A stretch of 57,625 nt of DNA from Thermoplasmata archaeon (GTDB taxonomy: Archaea; Thermoplasmatota; Thermoplasmata; Methanomassiliicoccales; Methanomethylophilaceae): positions 1 to 57,625 of the forward strand of contig SUSZ01000011.1 in the NCBI GenBank assembly GCA_015063165.1. The letters are read 5' to 3'. Below the pieces are notes generated by a model. It ran no database searches. It had not been told where the DNA came from and worked only from the letters and a program-made list of their open reading frames with translations. How positions within the stretch are numbered: position 1 is the stretch's first letter; the number at the start of each line of letters is the position of its first letter. This document shows positions 2,250 through 22,796 of this stretch, one piece after another. The position numbers and the translations under genes are program-made.

Positions 2250-2343
2250 ACACCATAATCCTTGGTCTCATTCAAGTAATCTTGGATACATCGCTCGGCG
2301 TTTCATTCTCAAAGTTTAAACCGTGCACCTCCCTTCTGAATCC

Positions 2344-3276
2344 ATGCAAGACCCGGCCATGCTCTGCCAGAAGGCGGTGGAATGTTTCTCCAAAGAACCG
2401 CAGAAAGCCCTGGAGCTATTCACAGAAGCCGCTCAGACCGGATACCCGAACGCCTACTTCGGAATCGCGGAGATGAAGATGGCAGGGATGCTCGGAGAGC
2501 CGGACGTCGACGCGTCGAAGGAGCTCTACGAGGCCGCGGCCGAAGCAGGCCACCCTCCGTCCATGTACAGGCTGGGGATGCTGTACTCCGGAGCCGCAGG
2601 ATATCCGGAAGACCCCGAGAAGTCCAGAGCCTGGTTCGAGAAAGCCGCAGAATGCGGCATGCCCGAGGCCTATCCCGAGGTCGCGGACATGTGCCTCTGC
2701 GGATACGGCGGACCGGTCGACCAGAAGAGGGCGTTCGAGATGTTCCGCATGAGCGCCGAATCGGGAGACTCCACATCCGCGTTCAAGCTCGGCTGCATGT
2801 ACTCCGACGGCATCGGCACAGAGAAGGACGAAGCCGAGGCCATCCGCCTCTTCCGCATCGCAGCCTTCAAGGGGGTCCCCGAAGCCCAGTTCAAGATGGG
2901 GCTCCTCACACAGGAAGGCACCATCAAGGACGAGGGGATGCCCGCCTACAGATGGTACGAATCCGCCGCCGAGGCCGGGATCCCGGCGGCCAAGTTCAAC
3001 CTCGGCACGCTCTACTACGAGGGCAACGGCGTCGAGAAGGATCCGGCCAAGGCGTTCGCTCTGTACAAAGAAGTGTCCGAGACCGGAGACGGCGACGCCC
3101 TGTTCATGGTCGGAAGGATGCTCTTCGAGGGGATCGGCGTGGATAAGAATCCCGAGGAAGGGCTCAGATATTTTGGGCTGTCTGCGAACGCCGGAAATCC
3201 GATGGCGATGGAGTTCGTGGAAAATCTTAGACGCCGGCAGAACACGCAGCTGATTAAAATCGACGGCGCAGAATGA
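2344..3276 (+). CDS. Sel1-like (TPR-type) repeat protein
   Basis: A 310-residue protein made of about seven Sel1-like repeats of roughly 36 residues. Each follows the pattern A-x-x-x-LG-x-x-Y-x-x-G-x-G-x-x-x-D-x-x-x-A-x-x-x-[FY]-x-x-A-A. No signal peptide or catalytic domain is seen, so it is probably a cytosolic scaffold for protein-protein contacts. The ATG at 2344 is preferred to a GTG at 2323 because the repeats begin soon after it. It lies just upstream of the Hsp70/GTPase operon in the same orientation, but with a separate promoter between them. A second, larger Sel1 protein lies at 30.2-32.0 kb. Confidence 0.85.
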   Translation: MQDPAMLCQKAVECFSKEPQKALELFTEAAQTGYPNAYFGIAEMKMAGMLGEPDVDASKELYEAAAEAGHPPSMYRLGMLYSGAAGYPEDPEKSRAWFEKAAECGMPEAYPEVADMCLCGYGGPVDQKRAFEMFRMSAESGDSTSAFKLGCMYSDGIGTEKDEAEAIRLFRIAAFKGVPEAQFKMGLLTQEGTIKDEGMPAYRWYESAAEAGIPAAKFNLGTLYYEGNGVEKDPAKAFALYKEVSETGDGDALFMVGRMLFEGIGVDKNPEEGLRYFGLSANAGNPMAMEFVENLRRRQNTQLIKIDGAE

Positions 3277-3382: not shown

Positions 3383-3405
3383 CATGCAATCATTATTAGG
3401 TGAGC

Positions 3406-5445
3406 ATGGCCCGCAGGGTGGGAATTGATCTCGGAACAACATACTCAGCCGTCGCCGTAATGGAGAACGGAAAGCCTGTAATCGTCAGGAACTCCTATGG
3501 GAAGGAACTCACCCCTTCTGTCATCTGTTGCTTCAACGATGAGGTGCTGGTAGGAGAAGAGGCATACGAAATGATGTCCTCGGGAGCAGGCGAAAGCGTA
3601 ACGGCGTTCAAACGCATGATGGGCGTGCCAGGGGCCGTGGTCACGCACGGCGACACGGATTATACGGCGGAGCAGCTCTCCACGATACTTCTGAAGCACC
3701 TGGTGGACGAAGCTAGCAACGCTCTCGGCGACAGGATCACGGAAGCCATCATAACCGTACCCCAATACTTCGACGACGTGAGGAGAGTGTCCACCATCAA
3801 CGCAGGGAAGGCCTGCGGCCTGAACGTCCTGAAGATCATAAACGAGCCCACATCGGCGGCCCTATACTACGGATACAACTACTCCAAGCAGAAGACTCTG
3901 ATGGTCTACGACCTCGGCGGAGGAACGTTCGATGTCAACATCATCTCGTTCGAGAACGGGAAGACCAACGTCATAGCGAGCAAAGGGGACCACTTCCTGG
4001 GAGGCAAGAACTGGGACGAGGCGATCATGAACATCGCCTGCGACGGATTCATGGACGAGTTCGGCATCGACCCCCGCAAGGACCTTAAGTGCAAGAGCAT
4101 CATGATGGCCACAGCGGAAAGGGTCAAGAGACAGCTCTCCACCGGCACCAGCGCCCCGTTCATCATCGAGTACCAGGACTGGACCGGAAGATACACCATC
4201 ACCAGGGACTCGTTCGTCCACGCCACCGAGCATCTCCTTCTCACCACCAAGAACATCTGCGAGGACACCCTGGCCGACAGCGGCATGAGCTGGGGGGACA
4301 TCGACGAGATCCTGCTCATAGGCGGCTCCTGCAGGATGCCCATGGTGCAGTCCTACCTGAAGGAGCAGACCGGCAGACCCGTGGTGCACCACCCGGACAT
4401 GGAGCTCGCCGTCGCCAAGGGAGCGGCTATCGCGGCCAGCAGATACAAGAACGGCATTTCCGAGACCATCCTCCGCGACGTCACCGCCCACAGCCTAGGA
4501 GCTCTGGCGGTCGAGGAGAACGAGGACCGCTACATCAACGAGATAATGATCCCGAAGAACTCCGGGATACCCTGCAAGTTCACCAAGAGGTTCCTCATCA
4601 AGGAGAAGTGCTGGACCGACATGATCGAGGTCTACGCGCTCCAGGGAGAGTCCGAGCTGCCCGACGACTGCGTCGTAGTGTCCAGGTCCGAGATCACTGG
4701 ATTCCTCAACGACGGCACCGGAGTGGTCATCGAAATCACCTACCACTACGACGAGAACGGAGTCGTCGTGATAACCGCAGAGCAGGACGGCCAGCCCCTG
4801 AAGGTCAAGAACACGCCCCTGCCCGAGGATATGCTCTGGATGTCCGGCAAGCCTTCCGAGAGAGTCGACACCAAGGATACCGTCAGGAAGAGCATCGCGC
4901 TCTGCGTGGACGTCTCCAGGAGCATGAAGTTCGAGGACGCCAACAACAAGATCCCCATCGAAGAGGCCAAGAAGTCCATCAAATCGTTCATCGACGGTTT
5001 CGAGGGGGACGACAACAAGTTCTCGCTGGTAATATTCAGCGACAAGCAGAAGGTCCTCTGCGAGCCCACCTCCGACAAGAAGGTGATAAAGGAAGCCGTC
5101 GACAGGATCAAGCTGAAGGACACCGGGAGCGGGACCACGGCGACGCCCATAGACCTGGCAAGAGCCACCGCTTCGATCGACGGGTATCTGGAGGTCATCG
5201 TCATCCTCACAGACGGCATATGGAAGCGCATGGACGTCTCGATAGCCCAGTCCAGGGAGTGCAGGAAGGACGGCGTCCCGATATTCGCCCTCGGCTTCGG
5301 AGATGCCAACAAGGGATTCCTGAAGCAGATCGCCACTGTCGACAACGGAGGCCTTTACACCACCATCGAGAAGCTGGGATCCACGTTCGACACGATCGCC
5401 ACCGCGATCAAGACGGACAACATGGGAATAAGAGACAAGGACTGA
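3406..5445 (+). CDS. Hsp70-family ATPase fused to a C-terminal von Willebrand A domain
   Basis: A 679-residue fusion. The first ~370 residues are an Hsp70 nucleotide-binding domain: phosphate-1 motif GIDLGTTYSAV near residue 6, EPTSAAL, phosphate-2 motif VYDLGGGTFDV near 167, and adenosine motif LLIGGSCRMP near 303. A shortened beta-rich substrate-binding-like segment follows. Instead of the helical lid, the C-terminus (from about 495) is a VWA domain with an intact metal-ion site: DVSRS (502-506), the GSGTTATP loop (574-581) and LTDG (Asp603). VWA domains bind ligands through a metal and often assemble complexes. It is the first gene of the operon; 7 bases separate it from the next. ATG 3406 is preferred over GTG 3400. 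Not housekeeping DnaK. Confidence 0.85.
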   Translation: MARRVGIDLGTTYSAVAVMENGKPVIVRNSYGKELTPSVICCFNDEVLVGEEAYEMMSSGAGESVTAFKRMMGVPGAVVTHGDTDYTAEQLSTILLKHLVDEASNALGDRITEAIITVPQYFDDVRRVSTINAGKACGLNVLKIINEPTSAALYYGYNYSKQKTLMVYDLGGGTFDVNIISFENGKTNVIASKGDHFLGGKNWDEAIMNIACDGFMDEFGIDPRKDLKCKSIMMATAERVKRQLSTGTSAPFIIEYQDWTGRYTITRDSFVHATEHLLLTTKNICEDTLADSGMSWGDIDEILLIGGSCRMPMVQSYLKEQTGRPVVHHPDMELAVAKGAAIAASRYKNGISETILRDVTAHSLGALAVEENEDRYINEIMIPKNSGIPCKFTKRFLIKEKCWTDMIEVYALQGESELPDDCVVVSRSEITGFLNDGTGVVIEITYHYDENGVVVITAEQDGQPLKVKNTPLPEDMLWMSGKPSERVDTKDTVRKSIALCVDVSRSMKFEDANNKIPIEEAKKSIKSFIDGFEGDDNKFSLVIFSDKQKVLCEPTSDKKVIKEAVDRIKLKDTGSGTTATPIDLARATASIDGYLEVIVILTDGIWKRMDVSIAQSRECRKDGVPIFALGFGDANKGFLKQIATVDNGGLYTTIEKLGSTFDTIATAIKTDNMGIRDKD

Positions 5446-5452
5446 TCCGATC

Positions 5453-7492
5453 ATGCCGTTAGAAGAGTGCTACTGCCAGATACTCGGCATAAACCCCTAC
5501 AAAGAGAACGAGTACGACGAGAGGAAGCTGGACGGGATAATAAAGAAGGCCAGCGACAGGTGGGCGAAGGAGTCCACCAACATCGACGACAACGTTCGCC
5601 TCACCGCCTCCAAGCGCATCGAGATGCAGAGCGACATCGCCGACGCCATGCTCGAGCCGGAATCCAGGAGGAAAGAGTTCGAGGAAGGCAGGAGGAGGCT
5701 CAAGTCCAAGCTGATGCCGCTTCTCAAGAAGTGCATCATCATGGAGGACGGCAGGATCTACGCTTTCCCCAAAGCTGTGAACGATCAGCTCGCTAAGATC
5801 GGATGGGACGGCATAACCTCCGAGGACGTGCCGGAGATCCTCGACCTTCAGGAAGGACGTCCCGAGCCCCCTATCAGCTCCAACGTCTCCAGCTCGTTCA
5901 ACTACATCCAGAACGTGAAGGCGAGCACTCCCGCAGAGGCCCTGAACTCGCTGATCGCCAATCCCAAGCTCAAGATCCAATGCCATCGCCTCACCGACAC
6001 CAGCGGAGTGTCCTCGGTCAAGGGAGCGATGGCGGAGTGCTACACGAGGCTCGGATTCGTCAAGCTGACGGATTTCCCGGAGCAGAACACCTACATAGAG
6101 TGCCTGAGGAAGCTCAAGGCCCTGTCCGACGACGAGCTCGAATCGTTGATCAAGTACAGCAGATGCTACCGCGACCTGATGCCCGCCATGGACGCCCTCA
6201 TGGGCGAGTGCGCCTACATCACCCGCGACCAGATAGACGGCCTCCTCCCGTCCACCATAGACCCGGACATGGCCATCCCCATCCTGGAGTCGTTCTGCTA
6301 CAAGAAGAGCATCGGCGCCAACTTCTCCAAGAAGGAGAGCAGCCTGGTCAGATGCCCGTTCTGCCTGAGCCTTCTGAAGGGCGGGGACGACGCCATGGTC
6401 TGCCCCAACTGCGGCATGGCGATAAGGGCGAAGTGCCCCAGATGCAAGAAGATCCAGGACTGCACCAACAAGGTCTGCATCAGCTGCGGATTCGACTTCG
6501 TGAAGGACACCGAGAGGGCCAGGAGGCTGGCGGTGAGCTTCCGCACGAACCTCAAGAAAGGGAACGTCCGTGCGGCGAGAGCCGATCTGGCCGCCATCAA
6601 GGACTCCTACTCCGAGAACATCAAGGTCGAGACCCTGGAATACGAGCTCCAGAGATGCTCGGAAGACCTGGACCAGTATTCGACCGCAGCTACCAAAGCG
6701 TACAAGAACGGAAGGTACTACGCCGCACTCAGGGCGTTCAACGATCTCAGCAAAAAGTATCCCGAGGTCCTGCCCAACAACCCCGAGCTCGACACCATGC
6801 GCCGCAGCGCGGAGGACTGCTTCGAGCTGGCTCAGGAGTCCTGCCTGGCAGCCAATAAGACCACCGACAAGAAGGAGAAGCTGGACCTTTACATCAAGGC
6901 CGCGGAGCACTGCATGGACCATCCGGCGGCCAGGCTCTTCCTGAGAGACTACCCGCCACAGGGCGTAACGGACTGCGAGGCCGTGGCCACCAAGACCGGG
7001 ACCATAATGATCAAGTTCACGCCCCCTGCGGACTCCAAGGGAGTCTCCTACTGCATCTACCGCGGAACGGAGATCCCTGCCCCCACCGAGGACACCGACC
7101 CGTTCGAGGTCATATCCAAGCACAAGGCGGAGACCGGATACGAGGACAAGACGGTCGAATCTGGGGTGAAATATCATTACATCCTGTGCTCCCGGCGCTG
7201 GGGAGTCCTATCCAGGCCGATGCAGCACATAGGCCCTGTCGTCGCCTTCGAGAATGTCAAGAAGGTGTCGCTTGACTCCACGGAAGAAGGATTCCACATC
7301 TCCTTCGAGCGCCCTCCCAGAGCCTACGCCGTGCGCATAAGCAGATGCCTGAAGGGGGACGAGGAGAACTGCACGGACATCGACGTCGGAGACAAGAACG
7401 AATGCGACGACTTCTGCCTCGTGGGCAACGTCTACATCTACTACTTCTGGACGGAGTACAAGGTCGGCAACGTCATAGAATCCTCCGCTTAG
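5453..7492 (+). CDS. J-like / double zinc-ribbon / TPR-like / FN3-like multidomain protein
   Basis: A 679-residue cytosolic protein with no single recognised family. The N-terminus (CYCQILGINPY, then a charged helix to about residue 85) looks like a degenerate J-type domain, though no HPD tripeptide is visible. Residues 301-350 contain four C-x2-C knuckles (CPFC, CPNC, CPRC, CISC), forming a double zinc ribbon. A helical TPR-like region (about 350-500) follows, then one or two fibronectin III-like beta segments (about 505-675, with the YCIYRG and YHYILCSRRWG strand patterns). The architecture suits an adaptor linking the Hsp70 partner to the GTPase. Start ATG 5453 follows the previous stop by 7 bases; the next gene begins 3 bases after its stop. 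Confidence 0.6.
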   Translation: MPLEECYCQILGINPYKENEYDERKLDGIIKKASDRWAKESTNIDDNVRLTASKRIEMQSDIADAMLEPESRRKEFEEGRRRLKSKLMPLLKKCIIMEDGRIYAFPKAVNDQLAKIGWDGITSEDVPEILDLQEGRPEPPISSNVSSSFNYIQNVKASTPAEALNSLIANPKLKIQCHRLTDTSGVSSVKGAMAECYTRLGFVKLTDFPEQNTYIECLRKLKALSDDELESLIKYSRCYRDLMPAMDALMGECAYITRDQIDGLLPSTIDPDMAIPILESFCYKKSIGANFSKKESSLVRCPFCLSLLKGGDDAMVCPNCGMAIRAKCPRCKKIQDCTNKVCISCGFDFVKDTERARRLAVSFRTNLKKGNVRAARADLAAIKDSYSENIKVETLEYELQRCSEDLDQYSTAATKAYKNGRYYAALRAFNDLSKKYPEVLPNNPELDTMRRSAEDCFELAQESCLAANKTTDKKEKLDLYIKAAEHCMDHPAARLFLRDYPPQGVTDCEAVATKTGTIMIKFTPPADSKGVSYCIYRGTEIPAPTEDTDPFEVISKHKAETGYEDKTVESGVKYHYILCSRRWGVLSRPMQHIGPVVAFENVKKVSLDSTEEGFHISFERPPRAYAVRISRCLKGDEENCTDIDVGDKNECDDFCLVGNVYIYYFWTEYKVGNVIESSA

Positions 7493-7495
7493 GAA

Positions 7496-8425
7496 ATGTA
7501 CAACGCTCCATCCATCAAGCTGCCGGAATCCGTGGAGGATCTGAAGGTGTACCGCAACAGGTCCGACGGGACCTACACGGCCAGATGGTCGTCGCCGTAC
7601 ACGGTGTACCTGTACCAGACTCCGAAGAAGCTTACGTTCACCGGGAAGACGATGAAGATAGAGGACCTGAAATCCCTCATGGACGAGATCATCCCTATCG
7701 AGGAATACACCGACGGGAAGCGCTTCGCCATAAAGGACGGGGCAGTGTGGTACGTGTACCCTGTCATACAGGTCGGAAAGACCGCCATCAGGGGGAGCCC
7801 CGCCTGCGTCATGAACCTCGAGCCCTTCAGGGACATAGAGAGGACGATGGTCAACAAGGACTGCATCATCACGATGACCTGGCCACAGGGAGCGATAGAG
7901 GCGGAGTTCAGGATCTCCAACAGCGAGATCAAGAACGCGGACGACCCCGGCCTCGAGAGGAGGACCATCCGCCGCAAGGACTATTACGAGGAGAGGCAGG
8001 TGGTCATACCCATGGGCGATTCCGTCAGGAAGTTCATCCACATCTATGCTAAGTACAAGATCGAGGACGATATCATGGCCTCTCGCCCGGTCATCATAAG
8101 CGCATACTCCGTCGAGTGCAGGAAGGTCAGATACACGGCATCCAGGGACAAGAAGACCATGACGTTCAAGCTCTCCGCCGACCCCAGCGTTGGGGAGATC
8201 CCCGCGATAATGGCCGTCCAGTCCAGCGAGAGGATACCTCTGAGGTCCGGGGACGGAGAGGTCGTCTGGAGATCCGAGGGTCCCGTCGTCTTCGAGAACG
8301 GCTCCGCTACGCAGTCGTTCGAATGCGGTCCGCAGACCGACATGGAGAGGATAAGGCTGTTCTTCGTCGAGGAGGCCGACTACAACCTGTTCAAGTTCAT
8401 ACACCCCATCTACAGGAGGCGCTGA
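7496..8425 (+). CDS. Beta-rich protein of the Hsp70/GTPase operon, function unknown
   Basis: A 309-residue protein with no signal peptide, membrane helix or catalytic motif that I recognise. Alternating hydrophobic strands (for example YTARWSSPYTVYLY near the start and DCIITMTWPQGAIEAEFRI near residue 120) suggest repeated beta-sandwich modules like the FN3-like C-terminus of the preceding protein. The two may share ancestry or stack together. It starts 3 bases after the upstream stop, and the GTPase gene starts 1 base after its own stop, so it is almost certainly part of the same complex or pathway. Codon use matches its neighbours. Confidence 0.6.
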   Translation: MYNAPSIKLPESVEDLKVYRNRSDGTYTARWSSPYTVYLYQTPKKLTFTGKTMKIEDLKSLMDEIIPIEEYTDGKRFAIKDGAVWYVYPVIQVGKTAIRGSPACVMNLEPFRDIERTMVNKDCIITMTWPQGAIEAEFRISNSEIKNADDPGLERRTIRRKDYYEERQVVIPMGDSVRKFIHIYAKYKIEDDIMASRPVIISAYSVECRKVRYTASRDKKTMTFKLSADPSVGEIPAIMAVQSSERIPLRSGDGEVVWRSEGPVVFENGSATQSFECGPQTDMERIRLFFVEEADYNLFKFIHPIYRRR

Positions 8426-8426
8426 A

Positions 8427-9677
8427 ATGTTCGGAAGGAGGTCCAAGAAGGAAACGTCCCCTGAATACCTGTGCCCGCACTGCTTCGGCAGGTTCAGGAT
8501 GAGCGAGGCGCACAGCATCTGCAGCAGGACATACTGCATGAACGAGTACGTCAACAGCAAGGACTACACCGACAGCAAGAAGTACCTCTCCCTGAACGGC
8601 GACTACGAGATCGACTACGAGTACACGAAGTTCCGCGGCCTGGATCCCCATAGCAAGGACGCCATTCCGGCGAAGCACCACATCGTCCGCAACGGCTCCA
8701 TGAAGTGCGACATGTGCGGCAGGCCCACCTACATCCGCCTGTGCCCGTTCTGCCACAACGAGATACCTCCAGGAGCGGAGGAGGGCGGCAACAGCATCTT
8801 CGTAGTCCTCGGGCCCAAGGGAGTCGGGAAGAGCCACTACATAGCCGTCCTCGTGGACCAGCTGAGCAACCACGTGGCCGGAGAGTTCAAGGCCGTCTTC
8901 AACCCGGCCGGAGACTCCACCATGGTCCATTACAACGACATGTACAGGGACCCCCTGTTCAAGGAGAAGAGGAAGCTGGACTCCACCAAGCCCTACAACA
9001 TGGGCGACGGCAGCAGAGAGCCTCTGGTCTACTACATGAACGTCAACAGGAGCGGAGTGTTCAAGGTGTTCACGTTCGCCTTCATAGACACGGCAGGGGA
9101 GGACACCATCAGCACCGACAGCATCCAGGACTCCAACCTGGACACGCTGATCGCCGGCGCCGCGGGCATCGTGTTCCTCGTGGACCCCCTGCAGATCAAG
9201 TACATCAGGGACAGGATACACATCGACAACCTCCCTCCGGTCACCAACAACGCTACGGAGACCCTGAACATCATAAGCAACGTCATCCGCAGGAAGCAGG
9301 ATCTCGGCTCCAGAGGCCGTATCGGCATACCTCTTGCGGTCAGCCTGACGAAATGCGACGTGCTGCTGAAAGCCCCCGAGGACGAGGAGGAGGACAAGAT
9401 CCTCTTCTCCCCCGGATCGGCGGTGCGTATACCCCGCGAGTCCGGAAGATACGACGCCGAGAACTTCGAACAGATCGACGTCGAGATCGAGGAATACCTC
9501 AGAAGGACCGCAGGGGAAGACTTCATACAGACGGTGAACGGGTTCGAAGACCACTGCTACTTCGCTGTATCCGCCCTAGGGAACAACCCCGAGGGCAAGG
9601 AACTCCAGCGCGGCGTCATGCCGATGCGTGTGGAAGACCCCTTCATATGGCTCCTCAACAGGAAAGGAATGGAATGA
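8427..9677 (+). CDS. Zinc-ribbon GTPase (TRAFAC-like, resembles double-GTPase family)
   Basis: A 416-residue predicted GTPase. An N-terminal cysteine cluster (CPHC near residue 16, then CDMC and CPFC around 93-112) suggests zinc ribbons. The P-loop GPKGVGKS spans residues 129-136, a switch-II-like DTAGED lies at 221-226, and TKCD at 308-311 is the base-specificity motif. The DTAGED signature and layout resemble the double-GTPase (DO-GTPase) families reported in predicted bacterial conflict and signalling systems; that placement is from memory and untested. It could act as a switch controlled by the Hsp70, GrpE-like and VWA partners. Its TGA overlaps the ATG of the GrpE-like gene (ATGA at 9674-9677). 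Confidence 0.75.
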   Translation: MFGRRSKKETSPEYLCPHCFGRFRMSEAHSICSRTYCMNEYVNSKDYTDSKKYLSLNGDYEIDYEYTKFRGLDPHSKDAIPAKHHIVRNGSMKCDMCGRPTYIRLCPFCHNEIPPGAEEGGNSIFVVLGPKGVGKSHYIAVLVDQLSNHVAGEFKAVFNPAGDSTMVHYNDMYRDPLFKEKRKLDSTKPYNMGDGSREPLVYYMNVNRSGVFKVFTFAFIDTAGEDTISTDSIQDSNLDTLIAGAAGIVFLVDPLQIKYIRDRIHIDNLPPVTNNATETLNIISNVIRRKQDLGSRGRIGIPLAVSLTKCDVLLKAPEDEEEDKILFSPGSAVRIPRESGRYDAENFEQIDVEIEEYLRRTAGEDFIQTVNGFEDHCYFAVSALGNNPEGKELQRGVMPMRVEDPFIWLLNRKGME

Positions 9678-10510
9678 GCGGTGAGAAAGAGAACAAACTG
9701 ATGAGCTTTATCATGAACGGCCGCAAAACAACCAACACCAACACGGAATCCTCGGAAGAGCTCCTGACGGAGCCCGAATGCGATTCATGCGAGCAAAATA
9801 TCGAACGCATAGAGGAAGAGCTGAGCGCCATAAGGGAACAGCTAGGGAACAGGGATGAAGGTTCGATGCCGGCCATCCTGGAAAAGCTTAACGAGATGGA
9901 ATCCTCTCTAGAAGAGATCCGTCAAGCTATCGAAGAACCTGAGAAAGACGAGGACGATGACGTCTTGCAAGAGGTGAAGGCTGGGATCCACGAGCTCCTG
10001 GGAAGGAAAGCGGACCCCACGACCTACATGACCTCGAGGGAACAGATGAAGACCATAATCGCCGCGGTGGAGAGAAGGGATGCGGAAGTCTCCAACAAGG
10101 CGTTCCTAAGGTCTATGGAGCAGATCGCCGTGATGAGGGAGGACTTCCAGAAGCTCAGCGATGGCATCCGCGAGAAGCTGGATGTCATGAGCGCGGAGGA
10201 GGTCCTGTCCTCGTTCGAAGCGTATAGGATCGATCTCGAGAACATACTCTTCGACGGCGGCGTCTTCATAGGTCCGTTCCCTTACGACAAACTGAACACG
10301 ATCCATCAGCGCATCATCGGAGTCGTTCCGACAGGCGACGAAGAGAAAGACGGAATGATAGCGGAAAGACTGTCAGACGGATACAAGCTGGGGAACAGGG
10401 TCCTCGTCAAGGAGAGGGTCATGGTCTACAAGCTGTCCGAATCCATGAAGAATGAAACCCCAAACGAAACCGTTTACGATGAAACAGGAAAGCTGGAGGA
10501 TGAAGAATGA
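9674..10510 (+). CDS. GrpE-like nucleotide exchange factor
   Basis: A 278-residue protein with a long acidic coiled coil (about residues 30-190), then a C-terminal domain that looks like the GrpE beta-wing (SDGYKLGNRVLVKERVMVYK, compared with the G-Y-x-L-x-x-RVLRPA-x-V-x-V pattern of GrpE). GrpE releases ADP from Hsp70 and holds its dimer by the coiled coil. It is longer and more acidic than typical GrpE (about 180-200 residues). ATGA overlaps couple it to the GTPase gene upstream (9674-9677) and to the Hsp70 gene downstream (10507-10510), so it is probably the dedicated exchange factor for one or both operon Hsp70s. Confidence 0.65.
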   Translation: MSGEKENKLMSFIMNGRKTTNTNTESSEELLTEPECDSCEQNIERIEEELSAIREQLGNRDEGSMPAILEKLNEMESSLEEIRQAIEEPEKDEDDDVLQEVKAGIHELLGRKADPTTYMTSREQMKTIIAAVERRDAEVSNKAFLRSMEQIAVMREDFQKLSDGIREKLDVMSAEEVLSSFEAYRIDLENILFDGGVFIGPFPYDKLNTIHQRIIGVVPTGDEEKDGMIAERLSDGYKLGNRVLVKERVMVYKLSESMKNETPNETVYDETGKLEDEE

Positions 10511-12078
10511 CGAAATACAGCATCGGCATCGACCTTGGAACTACCTATTCTTGCCTAGCCTATATAGACGAGGATGGCAACCCCGTGGTCGAAAAGAACT
10601 TCGAACAGGAGGAGACCACGCCCTCCGTCATACTGTTCAACGAGAACGGGGACATCATCGTGGGTTCCCCCGCCAAGGACATGGCCCTCATCTACCCCGA
10701 GGACAGGACCATAACCGCCGTCAAGAGGAACATGGGAACCGACTTCAAGGTCTACATAGACGGGACCGCGTACAACCCGATCCAGCTCTCGGCCACCATC
10801 CTCAAGAAGCTCATAGGAGACTTCAACGAGAACCACGGATGCGAGATAGACGAGGCGGTCATCACCGTCCCCGCCTACTTCGGACAGAACGAGAGGGACC
10901 AGACCAAGACCGCCGGAATCATCGCCGGTCTGAAGAAGGTCCACATCATCAACGAGCCCACCGCGGCGGCCATCGCCTTCGGATACGGGGAGAAGAGGGA
11001 CAAGAAGGAACGCGTCCTCGTGTACGACCTCGGAGGAGGAACCTTCGACGTCACCATCCTCGAGATCGACGACGGCCAGTTCACCACCGTGGCCACCGAC
11101 GGAGAGAGGTACCTCGGAGGAAAGGACTGGGACAAGGACATGACCGACATCATCATCGAGAAAGTCGCTGAGGAATCCGGAACCGACCAGGCCGACCTGA
11201 GGGCGGACACCGAGATAATGCAGACCCTGATCTACGACTCGGAGACGATCAAGAAGAGGCTGTCCACGTCCGAGAGCACCAAGGGAACGCTCACCGTCGA
11301 GGGGCACAAGTACGTGTTCACCGTGAACCGCGACGAGTTCCAGGAGAAGTCCGCCGCCAACCTCCAGATGACCATCGACCTCATCAACAGGGTCCTCAAG
11401 TCAAAGTCCTTCACCATCGGGGACATAGACGAGATCATCCTCGTAGGAGGCTCCAGCCGCATGCCTCAGGTGAAGAACGCCATTGCGACCAACTTCCCCG
11501 AGACCAGCATCAAGATCTACGACCCCGACCAGTCCATCGCGAAGGGAGCCGCCATCTTCGCCAGGTCCATCGGGGCAATCGCCGAGGAGGAGGCCGGATA
11601 CATCCCCGAGGACGACGAGGTCCCCGTGAAGAAGGTCACGATCAGGAACGTCCTGAGCAAGTCCTTCGGAATCAAGGCCATCTACGAGGACGGCTCCGAG
11701 AAGATCTCCAACCTCATCTTCAGGAACGAGACCCTTCCCATCGAGAAGACCAAGGTCTACTATCCTGCTGAGGAGGACCAGAGCACCATCAAGATCGAGA
11801 TCTTCGAGAACACCGCGGACAACAACGAGGAAGGCCTCAGGACCGAGACCGACGCAGGAAACCCCATCGGACAGTTCACCATGGACCTCCCCGTGGGAGC
11901 GACCAAGGAGACCCCCATCGAGGTCACCTTCATCGCCACCGAGGAGGGAATACTCACCGCGGACGTCTCCTGCATGGACCAGCAGAAGTCTTACTCCATC
12001 GAGAACGACCTGAAGATGTCTGCAGAGGAGATCGAAAAGTCCCAGAGCATCATGGAAAGGGTCGTCAACGGCAACTGA
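10507..12078 (+). CDS. Hsp70 (DnaK-like) protein lacking the helical lid
   Basis: A 523-residue Hsp70. The nucleotide-binding domain is canonical: GIDLGTTYSCL (residues 6-16), EPTAAAIAFGYG, VYDLGGGTFDV (from 172) and ILVGGSSRMP (about 310). A beta-type substrate-binding domain follows (about 385-500), but the protein ends soon after, roughly 90-110 residues short of typical DnaK, so the C-terminal helical lid is missing or reduced to one helix. Lidless Hsp70s usually bind only loosely held or dedicated clients. It overlaps the GrpE-like gene by ATGA and ends the operon. Housekeeping DnaK-DnaJ-GrpE is probably elsewhere in the genome; this copy looks specialised. Confidence 0.9.
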   Translation: MTKYSIGIDLGTTYSCLAYIDEDGNPVVEKNFEQEETTPSVILFNENGDIIVGSPAKDMALIYPEDRTITAVKRNMGTDFKVYIDGTAYNPIQLSATILKKLIGDFNENHGCEIDEAVITVPAYFGQNERDQTKTAGIIAGLKKVHIINEPTAAAIAFGYGEKRDKKERVLVYDLGGGTFDVTILEIDDGQFTTVATDGERYLGGKDWDKDMTDIIIEKVAEESGTDQADLRADTEIMQTLIYDSETIKKRLSTSESTKGTLTVEGHKYVFTVNRDEFQEKSAANLQMTIDLINRVLKSKSFTIGDIDEIILVGGSSRMPQVKNAIATNFPETSIKIYDPDQSIAKGAAIFARSIGAIAEEEAGYIPEDDEVPVKKVTIRNVLSKSFGIKAIYEDGSEKISNLIFRNETLPIEKTKVYYPAEEDQSTIKIEIFENTADNNEEGLRTETDAGNPIGQFTMDLPVGATKETPIEVTFIATEEGILTADVSCMDQQKSYSIENDLKMSAEEIEKSQSIMERVVNGN

Positions 12079-12148: not shown

Positions 12149-12553
12149 TCAGTCCTCTTCTCTTTCGTCGCTCACCACGATAACGGTGCAGTCGGCGTTC
12201 TTCACGACGTAGTTGGAGACGCTTCCGAGGAAGAGCCTGTCCAAGGACGACCTTCCGGACCTTCCGACTATGATGGTGTCGCATTTGTAGAGGTCGGCGA
12301 CGTTGATGACCATCTCGTCCGCCTTCCCTACCTCGATGATCGTGTGGACTGTGGCGCCCTCCAGAGCCGCCTTGCGCTGAGCAGCCTCCATGTATTCCCT
12401 CACGGACTCGTCGGGGTCCTCAGGGTCCATCTGGTCCTTGGAAACGATCGTGGCGATGTAGAGAGGTTCAGAATAGTTGACGGCGTGCCTTATAGCGTAG
12501 TTCAACGCTTTCTCCGAGTTAGGCTTTCCATCATAAGCCAACAATATGGTCAT
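12149..12553 (-). CDS. Universal stress protein (UspA family)
   Basis: A 134-residue single-domain Usp. The N-terminal strand and turn MTILLAYDGKPNSEKAL carry the conserved Asp, and the C-terminal part has the ATP-binding pattern G-x2-G-x9-G-[ST] (VGRSGRSSLDRLFLGSVSN). The protein is soluble and probably binds ATP as a dimer under stress; no specific partner can be read. A TATAA stands about 25-35 bases upstream on the minus strand, implying a short leader. Its 3' end faces the Hsp70 operon. Confidence 0.92.
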   Translation of the reverse strand: MTILLAYDGKPNSEKALNYAIRHAVNYSEPLYIATIVSKDQMDPEDPDESVREYMEAAQRKAALEGATVHTIIEVGKADEMVINVADLYKCDTIIVGRSGRSSLDRLFLGSVSNYVVKNADCTVIVVSDEREED

Positions 12554-12917: not shown

Positions 12918-14318
12918 TCAGAGTCCGTAGTTCTTGAGGTTGAAGTTGGGAATTGCGTCCTTGTACTTCTTGATGGCATACTCGACGAACTTGTCAGTGT
13001 CATCAGGGAGGGCCTCGAGGTCCTTGATGATGTTCTCGACGACATCGAGCTGCTTGTTGGTCAGAGCGAGCTCCTTGGAGTCGTAGTCCGCCTTGATGAT
13101 CTTAGCTGCGGTGAGTCCGGCAGCCTTTCCTCTGAGGTAGTAGTCGTTTCCGTTCGCGACGATTGCCTGTCCGATCTTGTAGGCGTTGTCGTAGGCGAGG
13201 ATGTGTCCCTCAGGTCCACGGACACGGTCAGAGATCATGTACAGGTCTCTGAGGGTCTTCTCGTTGCCGGTAGCGATGGCGGTGTTCATCAGAGATACTT
13301 CGTATCCAAGGGATCCGAGCCAGCACTGGACGGAAGATCCTCCGAACTCGGGGTGGTACTCGACGGACTCGTTGGACCACAGGTCGCACACCTGGGCCAT
13401 CAGGTTACCCTGAAGGTCCGCGTGAGCGCACTGGCAGTTCTTTCCTTCCTGGGCGCAGGGCTTTCCAGCGATGGCCTTACAGATGGGTCCCTCGTATCCG
13501 CAGTCCTTGTCAGGTCCGGATGCTCCGCACTCCCATGCCACAAGGGTCCTCTGGGAAGCGATCGCACGGGTGACTGCAGAGTAGGTCCTCTGAACATCGT
13601 TGTCCAGGAATCCTCCAGCCATGAACATCGAGGTGTTCGCTCCGGAACAGTTGGTGTCTCCTCCAGCGATGCACTTGTTCTTCTTCGCGATGTTGACGAA
13701 CTCGGACCAGACATACTCCATGTCGATGGCTCCGAGGTATCCGACTCCGAACAGGAAGGCGACGATGTCTCCGTTGGTGGTAGCGTAGTCGGCGAGCTCC
13801 TTTCCTCCCATGGTCTCACAGGAGAGGACATCCGCACCGTTCTCGCATGCGACCTCGGCCGCCTTGAAGAGAGCCTCGGGGTAGCCGTGGTGGCCGCCCA
13901 TTCCGGTCCTGAGTCCTTCCTCTGCCTCACGCTGGTCGGGGATGGTGTGCCTCACAGCGCAGTTGATTCCGTACTCCTCGTGGAATTTCTCGCAGATCTC
14001 CTTCTGTCCCTCGACGACGGGGGTGGACATCTTGGGGTTACCCATCTGGGAGATCCACTCGGTCTCGAGCTGCAGGTCGGGGAATCCGAGGGTGACCGCT
14101 CTGTTGAGGGCGTCCTTGGAGATGTAGTCGACGTACTCCTTCTTGAGTCTTGCAGGGTCTTTCTCGGATCCAGGCCTGGGTCCGTAGTTGAGCTCGGGAA
14201 TGACCCTTCCAGCTCCGACCTTTATTCCGAATCCATACGCGACAGGCTGTTTCGCGGTTCCGAAAACCATCTCGTCTGCACTGCCATAAGCCATCTTGGT
14301 GTACTTTGTAGTTGCCAT
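12918..14318 (-). CDS. mtaB: Methanol:corrinoid methyltransferase MtaB
   Basis: A 466-residue protein of the MtaB family, beginning MATTKYTKMAYGS and running the full family length. MtaB is a zinc enzyme that activates methanol and transfers its methyl group to the Co(I) corrinoid on MtaC. It is the entry enzyme for methanol-dependent methane formation and acts in the cytosol as a complex with MtaC. The sequence is rich in Cys and His around AGGDTNCSGANTSMF and VAWECGASGPDKDCG, where the zinc ligands of the family lie. ATG 14318 is preferred over an upstream start at 14348 that would run into mtaC. It lies 5 bases downstream of mtaC in one operon. No in-frame TAG is needed, unlike methylamine methyltransferases. 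Confidence 0.97.
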   Translation of the reverse strand: MATTKYTKMAYGSADEMVFGTAKQPVAYGFGIKVGAGRVIPELNYGPRPGSEKDPARLKKEYVDYISKDALNRAVTLGFPDLQLETEWISQMGNPKMSTPVVEGQKEICEKFHEEYGINCAVRHTIPDQREAEEGLRTGMGGHHGYPEALFKAAEVACENGADVLSCETMGGKELADYATTNGDIVAFLFGVGYLGAIDMEYVWSEFVNIAKKNKCIAGGDTNCSGANTSMFMAGGFLDNDVQRTYSAVTRAIASQRTLVAWECGASGPDKDCGYEGPICKAIAGKPCAQEGKNCQCAHADLQGNLMAQVCDLWSNESVEYHPEFGGSSVQCWLGSLGYEVSLMNTAIATGNEKTLRDLYMISDRVRGPEGHILAYDNAYKIGQAIVANGNDYYLRGKAAGLTAAKIIKADYDSKELALTNKQLDVVENIIKDLEALPDDTDKFVEYAIKKYKDAIPNFNLKNYGL

Positions 14319-14323
14319 TTGAA

Positions 14324-15103
14324 TCACGCTCCGGTAATCTCGTCCCATTCCTCTCTTATTCTCTTCCAGTCGTAGCCTTCTACGATCTTGTCAGCGATGG
14401 GGGGAGTCTGAGGTGCCTTCTCGGAATAGATTCCGAGCTCGAAGGACTCTGCGAAGTCCCTGTTGACTGCTCCACCGGCTGCCATGAAGGGCATCTTGTA
14501 TCCGTCCTTGACGAGGATCTCGGCTGCCCTGGGGAAAGCGGTCATGGTGGTAGTCATGAGTGCGGTACCGGTGACGAGCATGGGCTTGACCTCTTCGACC
14601 TTGGCGACGACGTCGGTGACAGCGACGTCCTTACCCATGTCGATGACAGAGTATCCGGAAGACCTCAGCATGACAGCTGCGATGTTCTTTCCGATGTCGT
14701 GGGGGTCTCCCTCGGCTGCATGCATGACGACGAGTCCCTTCGTCTGCCTGCCGCCTTCGATCTGCTTCTCTGCGAGCGCGATTCCGATCTCCATGGTCTT
14801 TGCGGCCATCATGATCTCAGGAAGGTAGTAGATGTGCGCTGCGTACAGTTTTGCGACACACTCCATTCCGACGACAAGTCCGTTGTTGATGATGTCCAGG
14901 GGCTTGTGGGTCTTCAGTGCTTCCGCGGTGGTGGGTCCGACCTCTTTGAGCTTCATGTAGAGGACGGTCTCGGCGACCTTCTTAAGAACGGGGTCTGCCG
15001 GAAGCATCTTCTTTGCGATCGACTCGGGAGTGTCTTCGTTCTGCGCCTCGACGTCATAACGCCTGAGGATCTTAGCGAAATCTACGCCTTTGTATGCAAT
15101 CAT
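14324..15103 (-). CDS. mtaC: Methanol corrinoid protein MtaC
   Basis: A 259-residue corrinoid protein. It has an N-terminal helical cap (about residues 1-120), then a Rossmann-like B12-binding domain with EGDPHDIG, in which His135 is the lower cobalt ligand, and the later GTALMTTTM and AAGGAVN loops that cradle the corrinoid. It accepts the methyl group from MtaB and passes it to MtaA (coenzyme M methylation, not in this window). Oxidised Co(II) is rescued by RamA-type proteins such as the one at 40.0 kb. It is the first gene of the mtaCB operon, with a leader of roughly 95 bases after the presumed start site. Confidence 0.97.
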   Translation of the reverse strand: MIAYKGVDFAKILRRYDVEAQNEDTPESIAKKMLPADPVLKKVAETVLYMKLKEVGPTTAEALKTHKPLDIINNGLVVGMECVAKLYAAHIYYLPEIMMAAKTMEIGIALAEKQIEGGRQTKGLVVMHAAEGDPHDIGKNIAAVMLRSSGYSVIDMGKDVAVTDVVAKVEEVKPMLVTGTALMTTTMTAFPRAAEILVKDGYKMPFMAAGGAVNRDFAESFELGIYSEKAPQTPPIADKIVEGYDWKRIREEWDEITGA

Positions 15104-15411: not shown

Positions 15412-16212
15412 GTGTCTAAGCGTTTGATGGCATTTGTCGTCATGGTCATAGCAATCCTAGCTGTGGCTCTAACGGCTGCCGAATGCGACGCCATGGACGA
15501 CATGCAAGGTCTTCCTCCCCTCGAAGAGCGGACGGCTCCACCACCCTGCCCTCCAATGGATCCATCCAACCTAAAAGACAACGGAATGTCCTATCATGCC
15601 CCTCCCGAGCTCCCGCCTGCGAAGAACGGCGACATGAGGGAATGCCCTCCGGAAAACGGCCCTGTAATAGTCTTCGATGCTTCTGGGATACCTGCGCATG
15701 CCCCTGACAAGATCAAGGGTTTCGCAGATGCCATGGACAAGAAGGAGAAGATTGATGATAAGAAGCACTCTTTCATGATATACGATCCTTCTGTCAAGGA
15801 ATCCTCTGACAAAGCCTTGTTCAAGGCGCTAGAGGCGATGGGATTGCAGGTGATATCCGATATCCACGAGCTGGACGAGCCATATTGCCTGATGGAAGTA
15901 ACTAACGATATAGGAACGGACATCGGCATCCTTCAGAGATTCATCCAGTACGTAGGTGCCGAGGACGCCAGCCTCTGTAATCTGATCAATAAGATGATAC
16001 AGGAGATGGAGAAATGCACTTCGGACATCAGAAACACATCCCTGTCGCGCGAAGACGAAGAACCTGTACTCGAAACCTTGAATTCCGAACCGGAAGAAAA
16101 GGAAGATAGCGAGGGCTCTGAAACCGTTTATGTTGTCTTAACAGCGCCTTCTGCTGTGGAGACCTACCTTTGCTCCCACGTTTTCGATGGTGGAGCTTCC
16201 GAATCCCTGTGA
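15412..16212 (+). CDS. Secreted acidic protein of unknown function
   Basis: A 266-residue protein with a clear signal peptide (residues 2-22, ending near TAAECDA), then a proline-rich segment (about 35-85) that probably forms an extended stalk. The globular part (about 85-200) contains four or more cysteines that could pair outside the cell. The C-terminus (about 200-245) is strongly acidic (EPEEKEDSEGSE) and shows no membrane anchor. The start is a GTG at 15412. It is transcribed away from mtaCB and lies upstream of the cell-surface gene block. I recognise no family. Confidence 0.6.
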   Translation: MSKRLMAFVVMVIAILAVALTAAECDAMDDMQGLPPLEERTAPPPCPPMDPSNLKDNGMSYHAPPELPPAKNGDMRECPPENGPVIVFDASGIPAHAPDKIKGFADAMDKKEKIDDKKHSFMIYDPSVKESSDKALFKALEAMGLQVISDIHELDEPYCLMEVTNDIGTDIGILQRFIQYVGAEDASLCNLINKMIQEMEKCTSDIRNTSLSREDEEPVLETLNSEPEEKEDSEGSETVYVVLTAPSAVETYLCSHVFDGGASESL

Positions 16213-16348
16213 GATCGCTCATCGGGAGCCGATAGGCTACTGACTCTATAGCGATTTCACTATAGTTGACTTGACAACAATATGTCATTTACATCTCATA
16301 ACATAAATTGACACAAACTTTTTATAAAGAATCAAGAAAAGGTGAAAA

Positions 16349-17035
16349 ATGAGCAGCATATTTGACAGTATATTCTCATCCGTGGATACGATGGGGCCAC
16401 AGGAGTTCATACTCTGCATAGCTTGCGCGCTGGTAATGGGTTTCATCATATCGGGAATATACATGTTCCGCAATAAACACAGCGCGAGCTTCGCATTGAC
16501 GATAGCTCTGCTGCCGGCCATAGTGTGTGTAGTCATAATGGCGGTCAGCGGAGACATCGGAGCAGGAATAGCGGTGGCTGGAGCGTTCAGCCTCGTGAGA
16601 TTCCGTTCCGCACCCGGATCTGCGAAAGAGATCGTCGTCATATTCCTCTCGATGGCGGTCGGACTCCTCATAGGAATGGGATTCCTGGCGTACGCAGCCG
16701 TCTTCGGCATAATACTCTGCCTTGTCATACTGGCATGCACCTCCATAGGATTCGGCGGAACCAAGGACGAGTTCGAGAACAAGATAGTCAAGATCACCGT
16801 CCCCGAAGACCTCGACTACAATTCCGAGATAGACACCCTCATGAAGGAGTACACCAGCACCTGCGAGCTCGTAGAGGTTAAGTCCGTCAACATGGGAAGC
16901 ATGTTCAGGCTTACCTACAAGGCCGTCCTGAAGGACTCCTCCAAGCAGAAGGAGCTCATAGACAAGATACGCGTGAGAAACGGCAACCTGGAGGTCGCCA
17001 TACTCCGCGAGGACACCACCAAGTTCGGGCTGTGA
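16349..17035 (+). CDS. DUF4956-type membrane protein
   Basis: A 228-residue protein with four predicted membrane helices in the first ~130 residues and a soluble ferredoxin-like C-terminal domain (about 140-228). The GAFSLVRFRSAPGSAKE loop after the second or third helix is typical of the DUF4956 family, which is repeatedly found beside VTC-domain genes, as here (4 bases before the next start). It is probably an inner partner of the VTC protein. A TATA element (TTTTTATAAAG, near 16318) and a GGTGA ribosome site precede the ATG. It is the first gene of a four-gene surface operon. Confidence 0.85.
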   Translation: MSSIFDSIFSSVDTMGPQEFILCIACALVMGFIISGIYMFRNKHSASFALTIALLPAIVCVVIMAVSGDIGAGIAVAGAFSLVRFRSAPGSAKEIVVIFLSMAVGLLIGMGFLAYAAVFGIILCLVILACTSIGFGGTKDEFENKIVKITVPEDLDYNSEIDTLMKEYTSTCELVEVKSVNMGSMFRLTYKAVLKDSSKQKELIDKIRVRNGNLEVAILREDTTKFGL

Positions 17036-17039
17036 TCCC

Positions 17040-17801
17040 ATGGCAGTAAAGACCGTGTTCAAGAGGTACGAACTGAAGTACCTGATGAATGAGGCACAGA
17101 CCAAGGCGGTCTATGATGCTCTAGCGGAGCATATGGTGCTGGACAAGTACGGTCATAGCTCGATCAGGAACATATATTTCGACACCGACGACTTCCTTCT
17201 GGCCCGTCGTTCCATATCCAAGCCCCTCTACAAGGAGAAGCTTAGGTTCAGGAGCTACGGAAAGGCCGAGAACGATAGCATCGTCTTCGTCGAACTCAAG
17301 AAGAAGTTCAAGAAGGTCGTGTACAAGAGGCGTCTCACGATGCCTCTCTGCGAAGCAATGGACTGGTTCACCAAAGAGGATGGAAAGGCCCCGGAGACCC
17401 AGATAGGCGAGGAGATAGACTTCATGCGCTATCGCTACCCCGGATTGCGTCCGGCTATGCTGCTCACGTACGAGCGCGAAGCGTACTACGCCAAGGACGG
17501 AAGCGACCTGAGGATAACCATAGACAGCAACATCCTCGCTCGTCTGGATAACATAGACCTCACATCGGAGGTCGGGGGACATTCTGTCCTTCCCGAAGGA
17601 TATACGCTGATGGAGATCAAGACCCTTTACGGGTACCCTCCCTGGCTGACCGCAGTGCTTTCAGGGAACCAGCTGTACAAGTCCTCGTTCACCAAATACG
17701 GCAATGCCTACAAGCAGATGGTAGTCAAGAGGCTGCCAGAAGACTTCTACCGCATACCCACCGGAGCCGCTACAGTGGTAGGGGCAGGAGGCGACAAATG
17801 A
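17040..17801 (+). CDS. VTC-domain (polyphosphate polymerase-like) protein
   Basis: A 253-residue tunnel-fold protein. The charged tunnel motifs of VTC/TTM enzymes are present in order: KRYELKYLM (E-x-K), RNIYFDT, EKLRFRSYG (R-x-R), VFVELKKK and YKRRLT, RITIDSN, LMEIKT and SFTKYGNAY. In yeast Vtc4 this fold makes polyphosphate from ATP. In prokaryotic operons with DUF4956 and surface proteins the substrate is unproven. The intact charged residues suggest an active phosphotransferase acting at the inner face of the membrane. Its stop overlaps the ATG of the next adhesin gene by 4 bases. Confidence 0.85.
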   Translation: MAVKTVFKRYELKYLMNEAQTKAVYDALAEHMVLDKYGHSSIRNIYFDTDDFLLARRSISKPLYKEKLRFRSYGKAENDSIVFVELKKKFKKVVYKRRLTMPLCEAMDWFTKEDGKAPETQIGEEIDFMRYRYPGLRPAMLLTYEREAYYAKDGSDLRITIDSNILARLDNIDLTSEVGGHSVLPEGYTLMEIKTLYGYPPWLTAVLSGNQLYKSSFTKYGNAYKQMVVKRLPEDFYRIPTGAATVVGAGGDK

Positions 17802-19609: not shown

Positions 19610-19670
19610 ACCGAACACATCTGAATCAAAACGACGCAGGCCATCCTGCGCTTCTCTATGAGGTATTAGA

Positions 19671-22600: not shown

Positions 22601-22796
22601 GGCCATGACCGGCAGCCTGTCCTCCTCGACCTACGTCACCGTGAAGTACGGCTCTGCGGAGACCCTTGTCGTGAAGATGCCCGTATCCATAAACAACGCG
22701 TATCTCTTCGCGCTGTACTCCAGCACACCCACCATAAGCACGTCGACTTCGAACAGCTACACTCTGGACGATAACGGAGTGTACTGGTCGTCCTGA
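19671..22796 (+). CDS. Large adhesin: four Ig-like (Big_2) repeats plus Cthe_2159-type beta-helix
   Basis: A 1041-residue exported protein. A signal anchor (residues 5-25) is followed by four bacterial Ig-like group 2 repeats (about 36-115, 116-193, 194-270, 275-352). Each ends with the hallmark V-T-A-V-A-A-G-T-A-T-I-T-A strand. The remainder is a Cthe_2159-like beta-helix with many GGxxTI turns and long Ser/Thr-rich strands. The Ig repeats would hold the binding domain away from the cell. Two 86-base stretches of repeats 2 and 4 are identical at DNA level, a sign of recent duplication or conversion. It ends DNGVYWSS, like its upstream paralogue (ENGVYWS). Confidence 0.85.
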   Translation: MSNRTIALIAIIAAIALIGAVAIYGFTGNNNSDDTSVTLDTSSISLETGDTRSLTATVTPSSWSGTVSWSSSNTSVATVDSSGKVTAVAAGTATITAIADSSKATCKVTVTGSSVPTTYISLSSTSLSLAVGDTSTLTATVKPSDTADSLIWKSSDTSVATVSSGVVTAVAAGTATITATSGSYSATCKVTVTTPTATSVTVDTSSVALAVGGTTTLTATVLPSTADQSVTWKSSNTFVATVSSSGVVTAVAAGTATITATSGFVSGTCTVIVSTSEVKTTSITLSSSTLSIETDETATMTATVKPTSSTQSVTWESSNTSIATVSSSGVVTAVAAGTATITATSGSYSATCKVTVSSSPSSSTTSIDGLTVTCESGTADIVTYTKNPSTGEYTVTFGTITENTEYTIVGDLIGNIVIDVDESETCNFTLNLGGVDIKSAYESPIVILSGNNVDISATKGTTNTVTDSRSAVDSDEDGVYSAAIHSKVDLQLKGKGTLTVTSESNNGIHSKNDLDVKNLTLKVTCIDNALKGNDSVTISSGTITLYSKQGDGIKTTDSDTKTDSDGDSTQRGIVTINSNDGDSVVTIYAACDGIDAAYDVVIEETESNSVTLKIYTDAYYSGAESVYSTSEDLYLKVPHSLYSSSYTYYAQFSDGSSTDWIKASYLKAASSGGFGFSSTYYYLTLDKPSDATSVKLYIYSGTPSSEAASGYKYCSDKCTLSSTKDMLVLSSSGSSTISISLGSYSTSSSSSFGPGMRGMHEGNTNKTSYSAKGIKAANAIIISSGTIAVSAGDDALHANHDEAIEASTTDSYGYGTGNITISGGDLTLISNDDGIHADGTLTISGGNVTIEKSYEGLEGGAINIYGGTMTITSSDDGINGTTTSNEDKGYVTQMYGYIKISGGYIYMIAGGDGIDSNCTSSGGLTITGGKIVVISTSSGNSAIDTDATYKFTGGYLFATCPQGMTQEMTNVSGGSYKAMTGSLSSSTYVTVKYGSAETLVVKMPVSINNAYLFALYSSTPTISTSTSNSYTLDDNGVYWSS
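20160..20245 (+). repeat. 86-base direct repeat, copy 1
   Basis: Identical over 86 bases to 20652-20737. It covers the end of the second Ig-like repeat (VTAVAAGTATITA strand through to the following strand). The copies are 492 bases apart, exactly 164 codons, so recombination between them would keep the frame. Confidence 0.85.
20652..20737 (+). repeat. 86-base direct repeat, copy 2
   Basis: Second identical copy, in the fourth Ig-like repeat. The equivalent part of the third repeat (near 20402-20490) is similar but not identical, so copies 1 and 2 were probably homogenised or duplicated recently. Confidence 0.85.

Follow-up and report, generated by a model that had tools for sequence, protein, structure and literature searches.

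A role in biological conflict has been predicted for DO-GTPase systems of the GAP1-N2 type (Kaur et al. 2020, eLife 9:e52696, PMC7159879). In a second theme among these systems, HSP70 and GrpE are joined by a DO-GTPase and by an FNIII protein that is fused to either DnaJ or TPRs, and a subset carries a second HSP70 without the peptide-binding domain. Here, we analyze an archaeal operon that compares closely with this theme. It occupies positions 3406-12078 on the plus strand of a 57,625-nucleotide stretch of DNA (henceforth termed the window), contig SUSZ01000011.1 of Thermoplasmata archaeon assembly GCA_015063165.1. The window corresponds in our data to contig C15, part of a 2.28 Mb genome whose named relatives are rumen and gut Methanomethylophilaceae of the order Methanomassiliicoccales. 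The operon encodes two Hsp70 proteins (A and F), a multidomain protein (BC), a zinc-ribbon DO-GTPase (D) and a GrpE-like protein (E). As judged from protein sequence comparisons, it is homologous to the HSP70-GrpE theme; new here are its GAP1-less archaeal form, an Hsp70-VWA fusion and what we read as a pyrrolysine join within BC.

An archaeal relative of GAP1-N2-type systems

Gene A (3406..5445, with an alternative GTG start codon at 3400) encodes an Hsp70 with nucleotide-binding and beta substrate-binding domains (HSP70 E 4.7e-106) that continues into a C-terminal VWA domain (4894..5385, E 2.1e-17). It is followed by BC (5453..8425), by the 416-residue DO-GTPase2 protein D (8427..9677, PF19993 E 1.7e-9), by the 278-residue GrpE-like nucleotide exchange factor E (9674..10510) and by F (10507..12078), a lidless Hsp70 of 523 residues (HSP70 E 1.3e-99), all on the plus strand. 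The PF01025 match of E (8.6e-5) falls below the cut-off, and the assignment is by homology to a paralogue, E2 (2.4e-11), and a bacterial homologue (4.9e-18). Gaps of 7, 3 and 1 bases and then two ATGA overlaps separate the reading frames as initially called, which agrees with the tight operon described in the original prediction, made from the sequence alone. Pfam and residue checks also bear out its assignment of two Hsp70s, one VWA-fused with an intact metal site and one lidless, of a beta-rich protein (C, the second part of BC), of a GrpE-like protein and of a GTPase of the double-GTPase kind with a DTAGED switch. Its count of six genes did not hold: B and C, there taken as separate genes, lie in the same frame, parted only by a TAG codon, and are fused in nearly all relatives, so that we read the operon as five genes, A, BC, D, E and F.

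A scan for the parent system with a D profile, using one genome per species, revealed bacterial loci with the order GrpE-Hsp70-Hsp70/VWA-BC-DO-GTPase-GAP1-membrane DO-GTPase in Azospirillum, Phaeospirillum, Alkalihalobacterium, Aminicenantes and Tannerellaceae, as well as loci in Acidobacteria, Chloroflexi, Lachnospiraceae and others in which this arrangement is partial or rearranged. Pfam confirms the component proteins in the Aminicenantes locus, and the window proteins are homologous one by one with the bacterial members. The features that the window shares with the published theme are a zinc-ribbon DO-GTPase, an HSP70, GrpE, an FNIII protein and a membrane GTPase; the lidless F and the J-like and TPR-like parts of BC may correspond to the reduced second HSP70 and to the DnaJ or TPR fusion of the theme. 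HSP70 and GrpE occur together (A, F and E), and a second DO-GTPase with membrane helices is present in trans. The window form departs from the theme in lacking GAP1 and an effector, in the move of E and F to the 3' end, in the placement of the second GTPase outside the operon in the window's genus, in the fusion of VWA to Hsp70, and in its conserved location, whereas the published theme resides in a mobile neighborhood with variable effectors. The original prediction had regarded the system as undescribed. The Hsp70-VWA fusion is indeed not named in the literature searched, within the wording used, nor mentioned in the text of PMC7159879, and GAP1 is absent; against this, the component-by-component match with the second GAP1-N2 theme and the shared bacterial parent operon leave almost no probability for a wholly undescribed system.

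The same genome contains a second module of this kind (L008:1239-13622, equivalent to C54:53238-65621), located ca. 10 kb from the housekeeping GrpE-DnaK-DnaJ operon. It encodes a membrane DO-GTPase-like protein (G2), an Hsp70 (F2), a DO-GTPase (D2), GAP1 (GAP1-N2 E 7e-15, GAP1-M 2.9e-10), an Hsp70-VWA protein (A2), a fused BC2 and a GrpE-like protein (E2). Identities to the window proteins amount to 38% for A, 23-24% for B/C, 37% for D, 25% for E and 39% for F. In a further subtype of this module (L067, L068 and L087, in G091 and G083), two or three consecutive G2-type GTPase open reading frames (ORFs) precede D2 and GAP1.

GAP1-N2 passes its cut-off in 7 of the 147 genomes of the order, GAP1-M does so in the same 7, and both always fall in the second module type. 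No GAP1 gene stands beside the D gene of the window; the sole match of each GAP1 model in the genome falls in the C54 module. Neither PF20013 and PF20014 nor locally built profiles uncovered a hidden GAP1 nearby, and none was found among the genes around the unlinked membrane GTPase. In a tree of 92 D proteins, all 50 sequences from operons with the order A-BC-D-E-F (type 1) form one clade (support 100/99), and all GAP1-bearing loci lie outside it; outside this clade, only two entries lack GAP1, namely the truncated contig L161 and L149, an isolated D. The most parsimonious reading is that GAP1 was lost once, at the base of type 1.

An in-frame TAG within the BC gene

B (5453-7492) and C (7496-8425) share one reading frame, with the TAG at 7490-7492 as sole separator. 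If this TAG were a true stop codon, B and C would be separate genes of a six-gene operon, and an ATG three bases past the TAG in the window favors such an arrangement. In the sister genome G092, however, TAG occurs at the same place and the next possible start codon follows only 37 codons on, yet the residues right after the TAG are conserved (EMYNAPSIKLP in the window, EVYNAPSIKLP in G092). In nearly every other relative, archaeal or bacterial, B-C is a single protein of ca. 1000 residues. Pyrrolysyl-tRNA synthetase (PylS) is encoded in the window genome, above the curated cut-off, and likewise in G092.

The use of stop codons, measured for 244 ORF calls in 413 kb of the window genome, points in the same direction: TGA ends 219, TAA 18 and TAG only 7 of them. 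Six of these seven ORFs, including both TAG-bearing genes of this system, run on into long coding-like extensions, and by eye three or four of the extended ones resemble methylamine methyltransferases. The extension of the remaining one (L182, minus strand) scores negative, and this ORF is probably spurious. BC thus combines pyrrolysine machinery in the cell, a conserved in-frame TAG and homology on both sides of the codon, the hallmarks of a UAG-decoded gene. Given the shared TAG, the fused relatives, PylS and the rarity of TAG as a terminator, we take BC to be a single protein of 990 residues that carries pyrrolysine at position 680, and we reject the division into six separate genes, which we regard as very improbable.

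A close precedent exists within the family. In Candidatus Methanomethylophilus alvus, TAG makes up 1.6% of stops and 16 extra pyrrolysine proteins are reported (Borrel et al. 2014, PMC4153887). As in the window genome, TAG is nearly unused as a stop there, and in-frame TAG codons extend to genes with no part in methylamine metabolism. The entries displayed from the list of such proteins in that study include neither BC nor GAP1, and compared with those proteins, the TAG codons of the window system sit in inter-domain linkers. In BC, the codon is located in the linker before the third FN3-like stretch, and no relative other than G092 has TAG there; its function in BC may therefore be neutral. 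The GAP1 gene of the second module also contains an in-frame TAG (L008:6044-6046 on C54; L069:8084-8086 in G084), at codon 139, in the stretch from GAP1-N2 to GAP1-M. Relatives have Leu at this position, and the TAG probably encodes pyrrolysine as well. One in-frame TAG each is further present in the membrane DO-GTPase genes of two relatives (G094:C38:19589-21079 and G083:C29:77397-77909), so that TAG seems to drift freely into genes of the window's genus.

Chaperones, scaffold candidate and GTPases

The two Hsp70s differ from housekeeping DnaK in several respects. F matches the HSP70 model only to position 514 of 599 and hence has no lid, and a bacterial homologue of F matches only to position 373. 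In A, the VWA domain occupies the place of the Hsp70 alpha lid. Across 47 A proteins and 52 F proteins, the residues examined in the ATP site do not vary. The interdomain-linker Asp is needed in DnaK for J-protein coupling; it is kept in 46 of the 47 A proteins and absent from all 52 F homologues, 44 of which, including F of the window, have Asn. The VWA domain carries a metal-ion-dependent adhesion site (MIDAS) of the form DxSxS...T...D, as seen from residue conservation in homologues. All of the 47 A homologues share its D, S, S and second D. The middle T occurs in every one of the 29 GAP1-less copies and in 3 of 18 GAP1-bearing ones, the other 15 having N. The Hsp70-VWA fusion is common to archaea and at least seven bacterial phyla.

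An Hsp70 ATPase, a GrpE-like exchange factor and a J-like domain are also found in the housekeeping DnaK-DnaJ-GrpE set, but the window proteins lack a lid and the HPD motif and lie far below the DnaK equivalog cut-off (822.55 bits; A scores 342.7 and F 328.2). The original prediction would have fallen if the Hsp70s and the GrpE-like protein of the window were the organism's only housekeeping chaperones; the separate GrpE-DnaK-DnaJ operon on C54 rules this out. Other VWA systems offer partial parallels. MoxR-vWA ternary systems (PMC7159879) similarly couple VWA to an NTPase chaperone, whereas the window operon has no AAA+ MoxR ATPase and the partner is a covalently fused Hsp70. TerY-P triads of a VWA protein, a PP2C phosphatase and a kinase (PMC11090510) share the VWA domain with intact metal site and a zinc ribbon. 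Without a kinase, phosphatase or McrBC in the window operon, we rejected a relation to TerY-P or CoCoNuT systems.

The domain order of BC is a J-like helical domain, a helical region, a double zinc ribbon, TPR-like helices and FN3 beta-sandwich domains. AlphaFold2 models of B and C reach a mean predicted local distance difference test score (pLDDT) of 90.5 and 93.2, respectively, and Foldseek returned FN3 domain matches in the PDB for both; for B these dominated the search, which was uninformative for the J-like part. Pfam detects no domain in C, and an fn3 match in a BC homologue (L146, E 1.1e-6) attests to FNIII repeats in this family. The TPR-like region matches the TPRs of O-GlcNAc transferase (E 2e-9). 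The double zinc ribbon (6353..6490, plus strand) has seven invariant Cys residues and matches PF12773 with an E of 6.2e-4 in the window and above the cut-off in bacterial homologues. The N-terminal 100 residues of B (5453..5755, plus strand) match J domains weakly at the profile level (DNAJB8 E 4.9e-4, DNAJA3 E 8.1e-3), and the HPD motif is found in none of 27 homologues of this divergent domain. The description of B as a J-like protein with zinc-ribbon and FN3-like parts thus stands for the zinc ribbon, and its J-like label is only weakly supported.

D displays the features of a DO-GTPase with one or two N-terminal zinc ribbons and a Walker B glutamate. Its motifs G1 (GPKGVGKS), G3 (DTAGED) and G4 (TKCD) are conserved across 81 homologues, and the zinc-ribbon cysteines are conserved as well. 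A membrane DO-GTPase, whose helices were assigned on the basis of the family's hydrophobic N-terminal sequence, is encoded in the window genome at C45:25558-26784, unlinked to the operon. Genera g6 and g9 and part of g7 have its gene ca. 2 kb away from the operon, and in the window's genus the two are apart. The operon and the membrane DO-GTPase match in their presence in 49 of 52 genomes (Fisher p 4e-20, without phylogenetic correction), a count in which a few membrane-GTPase matches (G084, G093) are G2 of the second module. Besides this gene, the genome (G000) has another DO-GTPase-like gene, unlinked to either module, at C3:40874-41863.

Upstream of A, a gene for a 317-residue Sel1-repeat protein (2323..3276, plus strand; PF08238 E 2.2e-51) is a conserved neighbor of the operon, both within the window's genus and outside it. 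It adjoins the Hsp70-VWA gene in 22 of the 34 type-1 loci with room for it, divergently in 17, and is co-directional with the operon in the window's subclade. This gene may be a further component of the system, and together with the membrane DO-GTPase we consider its product a probable further part.

Downstream of F, inspection by eye suggests a universal-stress-like protein (12149-12553) and then MtaB- and MtaC-like methanol methyltransferase genes (12918-15103, minus strand). Beyond them, at 15412-22796, follows, again as judged by eye, a run of membrane or surface genes with possible DUF4956-like and VTC-like proteins and large Ig-like-repeat proteins that contain tandem repeats.

Inheritance and proposed role

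The order A-BC-D-E-F is invariant in ca. 30 loci. D is present in 67 of the 147 genomes of the order and in 31/31 genomes of the window's genus, one of which (G084) retains type 1 only in fragments. The type-1 form occurs in five genera, all of the family Methanomethylophilaceae; outside this family, it had no match in 390 genomes of the phylum. The original prediction had staked itself on the genes staying together beyond this genome, which they do in ca. 30 independent archaeal loci and in bacteria. The ratio of nonsynonymous to synonymous substitutions (dN/dS) relative to G092 is ca. 0.13-0.29 for every operon gene, and the neighbors of the operon are stable rather than forming a mobile neighborhood with variable effectors. 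Taken together, purifying selection, stable neighbors and an almost universal occurrence within the genus point to a domesticated physiological switch instead of a mobile defense island. The system has no match in phage records, and the only plasmid matches are two from Rhodococcus, for the bacterial relative, so that we discarded a link to mobile elements or phages. A known defense system was likewise discarded, since the search against PADLOC families yielded nothing solid.

To our knowledge, no DO-GTPase system has an experimentally settled function. We favor, with moderate confidence, a domesticated and vertically inherited switch for client or membrane stress over a suicide or defense device, given that the operon has lost GAP1 and effectors and shows the behavior of core genes. 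BC would then act as scaffold and sensor, with its FN3 domains and zinc ribbons binding client or ligand and its J-like end docking the Hsp70s. A would be the working chaperone, as suggested by the retention of all ATPase residues examined and of the linker Asp, and its VWA domain might latch bound peptide in a metal-dependent manner. F, with its altered linker, would serve as ATP-dependent partner or adaptor, and E would reset both by nucleotide exchange. Client capture would set the nucleotide state of D, which could pair with the membrane GTPase and report occupancy to the membrane as a GTP signal.

Several observations weigh against this proposal. Coupling to the Hsp70s is only putative, because the J-like domain lacks HPD and is weakly detected (E 4.9e-4). 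Most g7 genomes, as well as every g14 genome with the operon, lack the membrane GTPase, which is therefore not essential everywhere. It is also possible that a GAP1-like protein has diverged too far for the two Pfam models, and the second module might supply GAP1 in trans in this cell, though only 7 genomes have that module.

The stress or defense role first suggested for these genes thus tilts towards the former, and defense is conceivable for this copy but not favored. In a working conflict system, the FN3 domains would detect an invader and the GTPase switch would fire, whereupon effectors or multimeric assemblies of Hsp70 would contain the invader. Such a system would agree with the conflict role predicted for the ancestral family (PMC7159879), with the patchy, GAP1-keeping second module (7/147 genomes) and with a rapidly diverging FN3 protein, as BC is 68% identical to its sister in G092 compared to 89% for F. 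Yet Pfam detects no effector domain in the operon, none of A, B, C and F matches a PADLOC family, D and E give only marginal P-loop, coiled-coil or otherwise motif-like matches, and the operon is found in all 31 genomes of the genus with stable neighbors, under purifying selection in all genes and without a counterpart in phage records. We therefore regard this alternative as unlikely.

The chaperone parts could instead form a client-specific machine, for example one that assembles or inserts a membrane complex or a methyl-transfer complex, in which the GTPase would not signal but time the release of the client to its next partner. Such a task would suit Hsp70s that lack a lid but keep their ATPase residues, accompanied by a GrpE-like factor and a J-like scaffold, and it would agree with conservation across methylotrophic methanogens of one family and with the position of the operon beside mtaB/mtaC in part of the genus. 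The mtaB neighbor is not conserved outside the genus, however, bacterial relatives without methanogenesis keep the same core, and the membrane GTPase and VWA domain point to signaling, which makes this option, too, quite unlikely in our view.

Returning to the domesticated switch, a more daring version, to which we assign a low probability, holds that a core physiological chaperone-GTPase switch of rumen-type methanogens arose from a bacterial conflict system by loss of GAP1 and effectors, with an Hsp70 bearing a metal-dependent VWA latch as its key enzyme and with a scaffold whose full length depends on pyrrolysine. The VWA domain in place of the Hsp70 lid represents an unusual chaperone design, and the TAG join illustrates how annotation splits genes in pyrrolysine-using archaea. 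If true, the pyrrolysine dependence of full-length BC would couple the switch to the cell's pyrrolysine-methylamine economy. For the family, the operon constitutes a natural minimal DO-GTPase system, with no GAP1 or effector and with an Hsp70-VWA, scaffold, GTPase and GrpE core that purifying selection maintains in almost all genomes of a genus. Such a minimal version separates the switch from the weapon and makes the role of the core testable.

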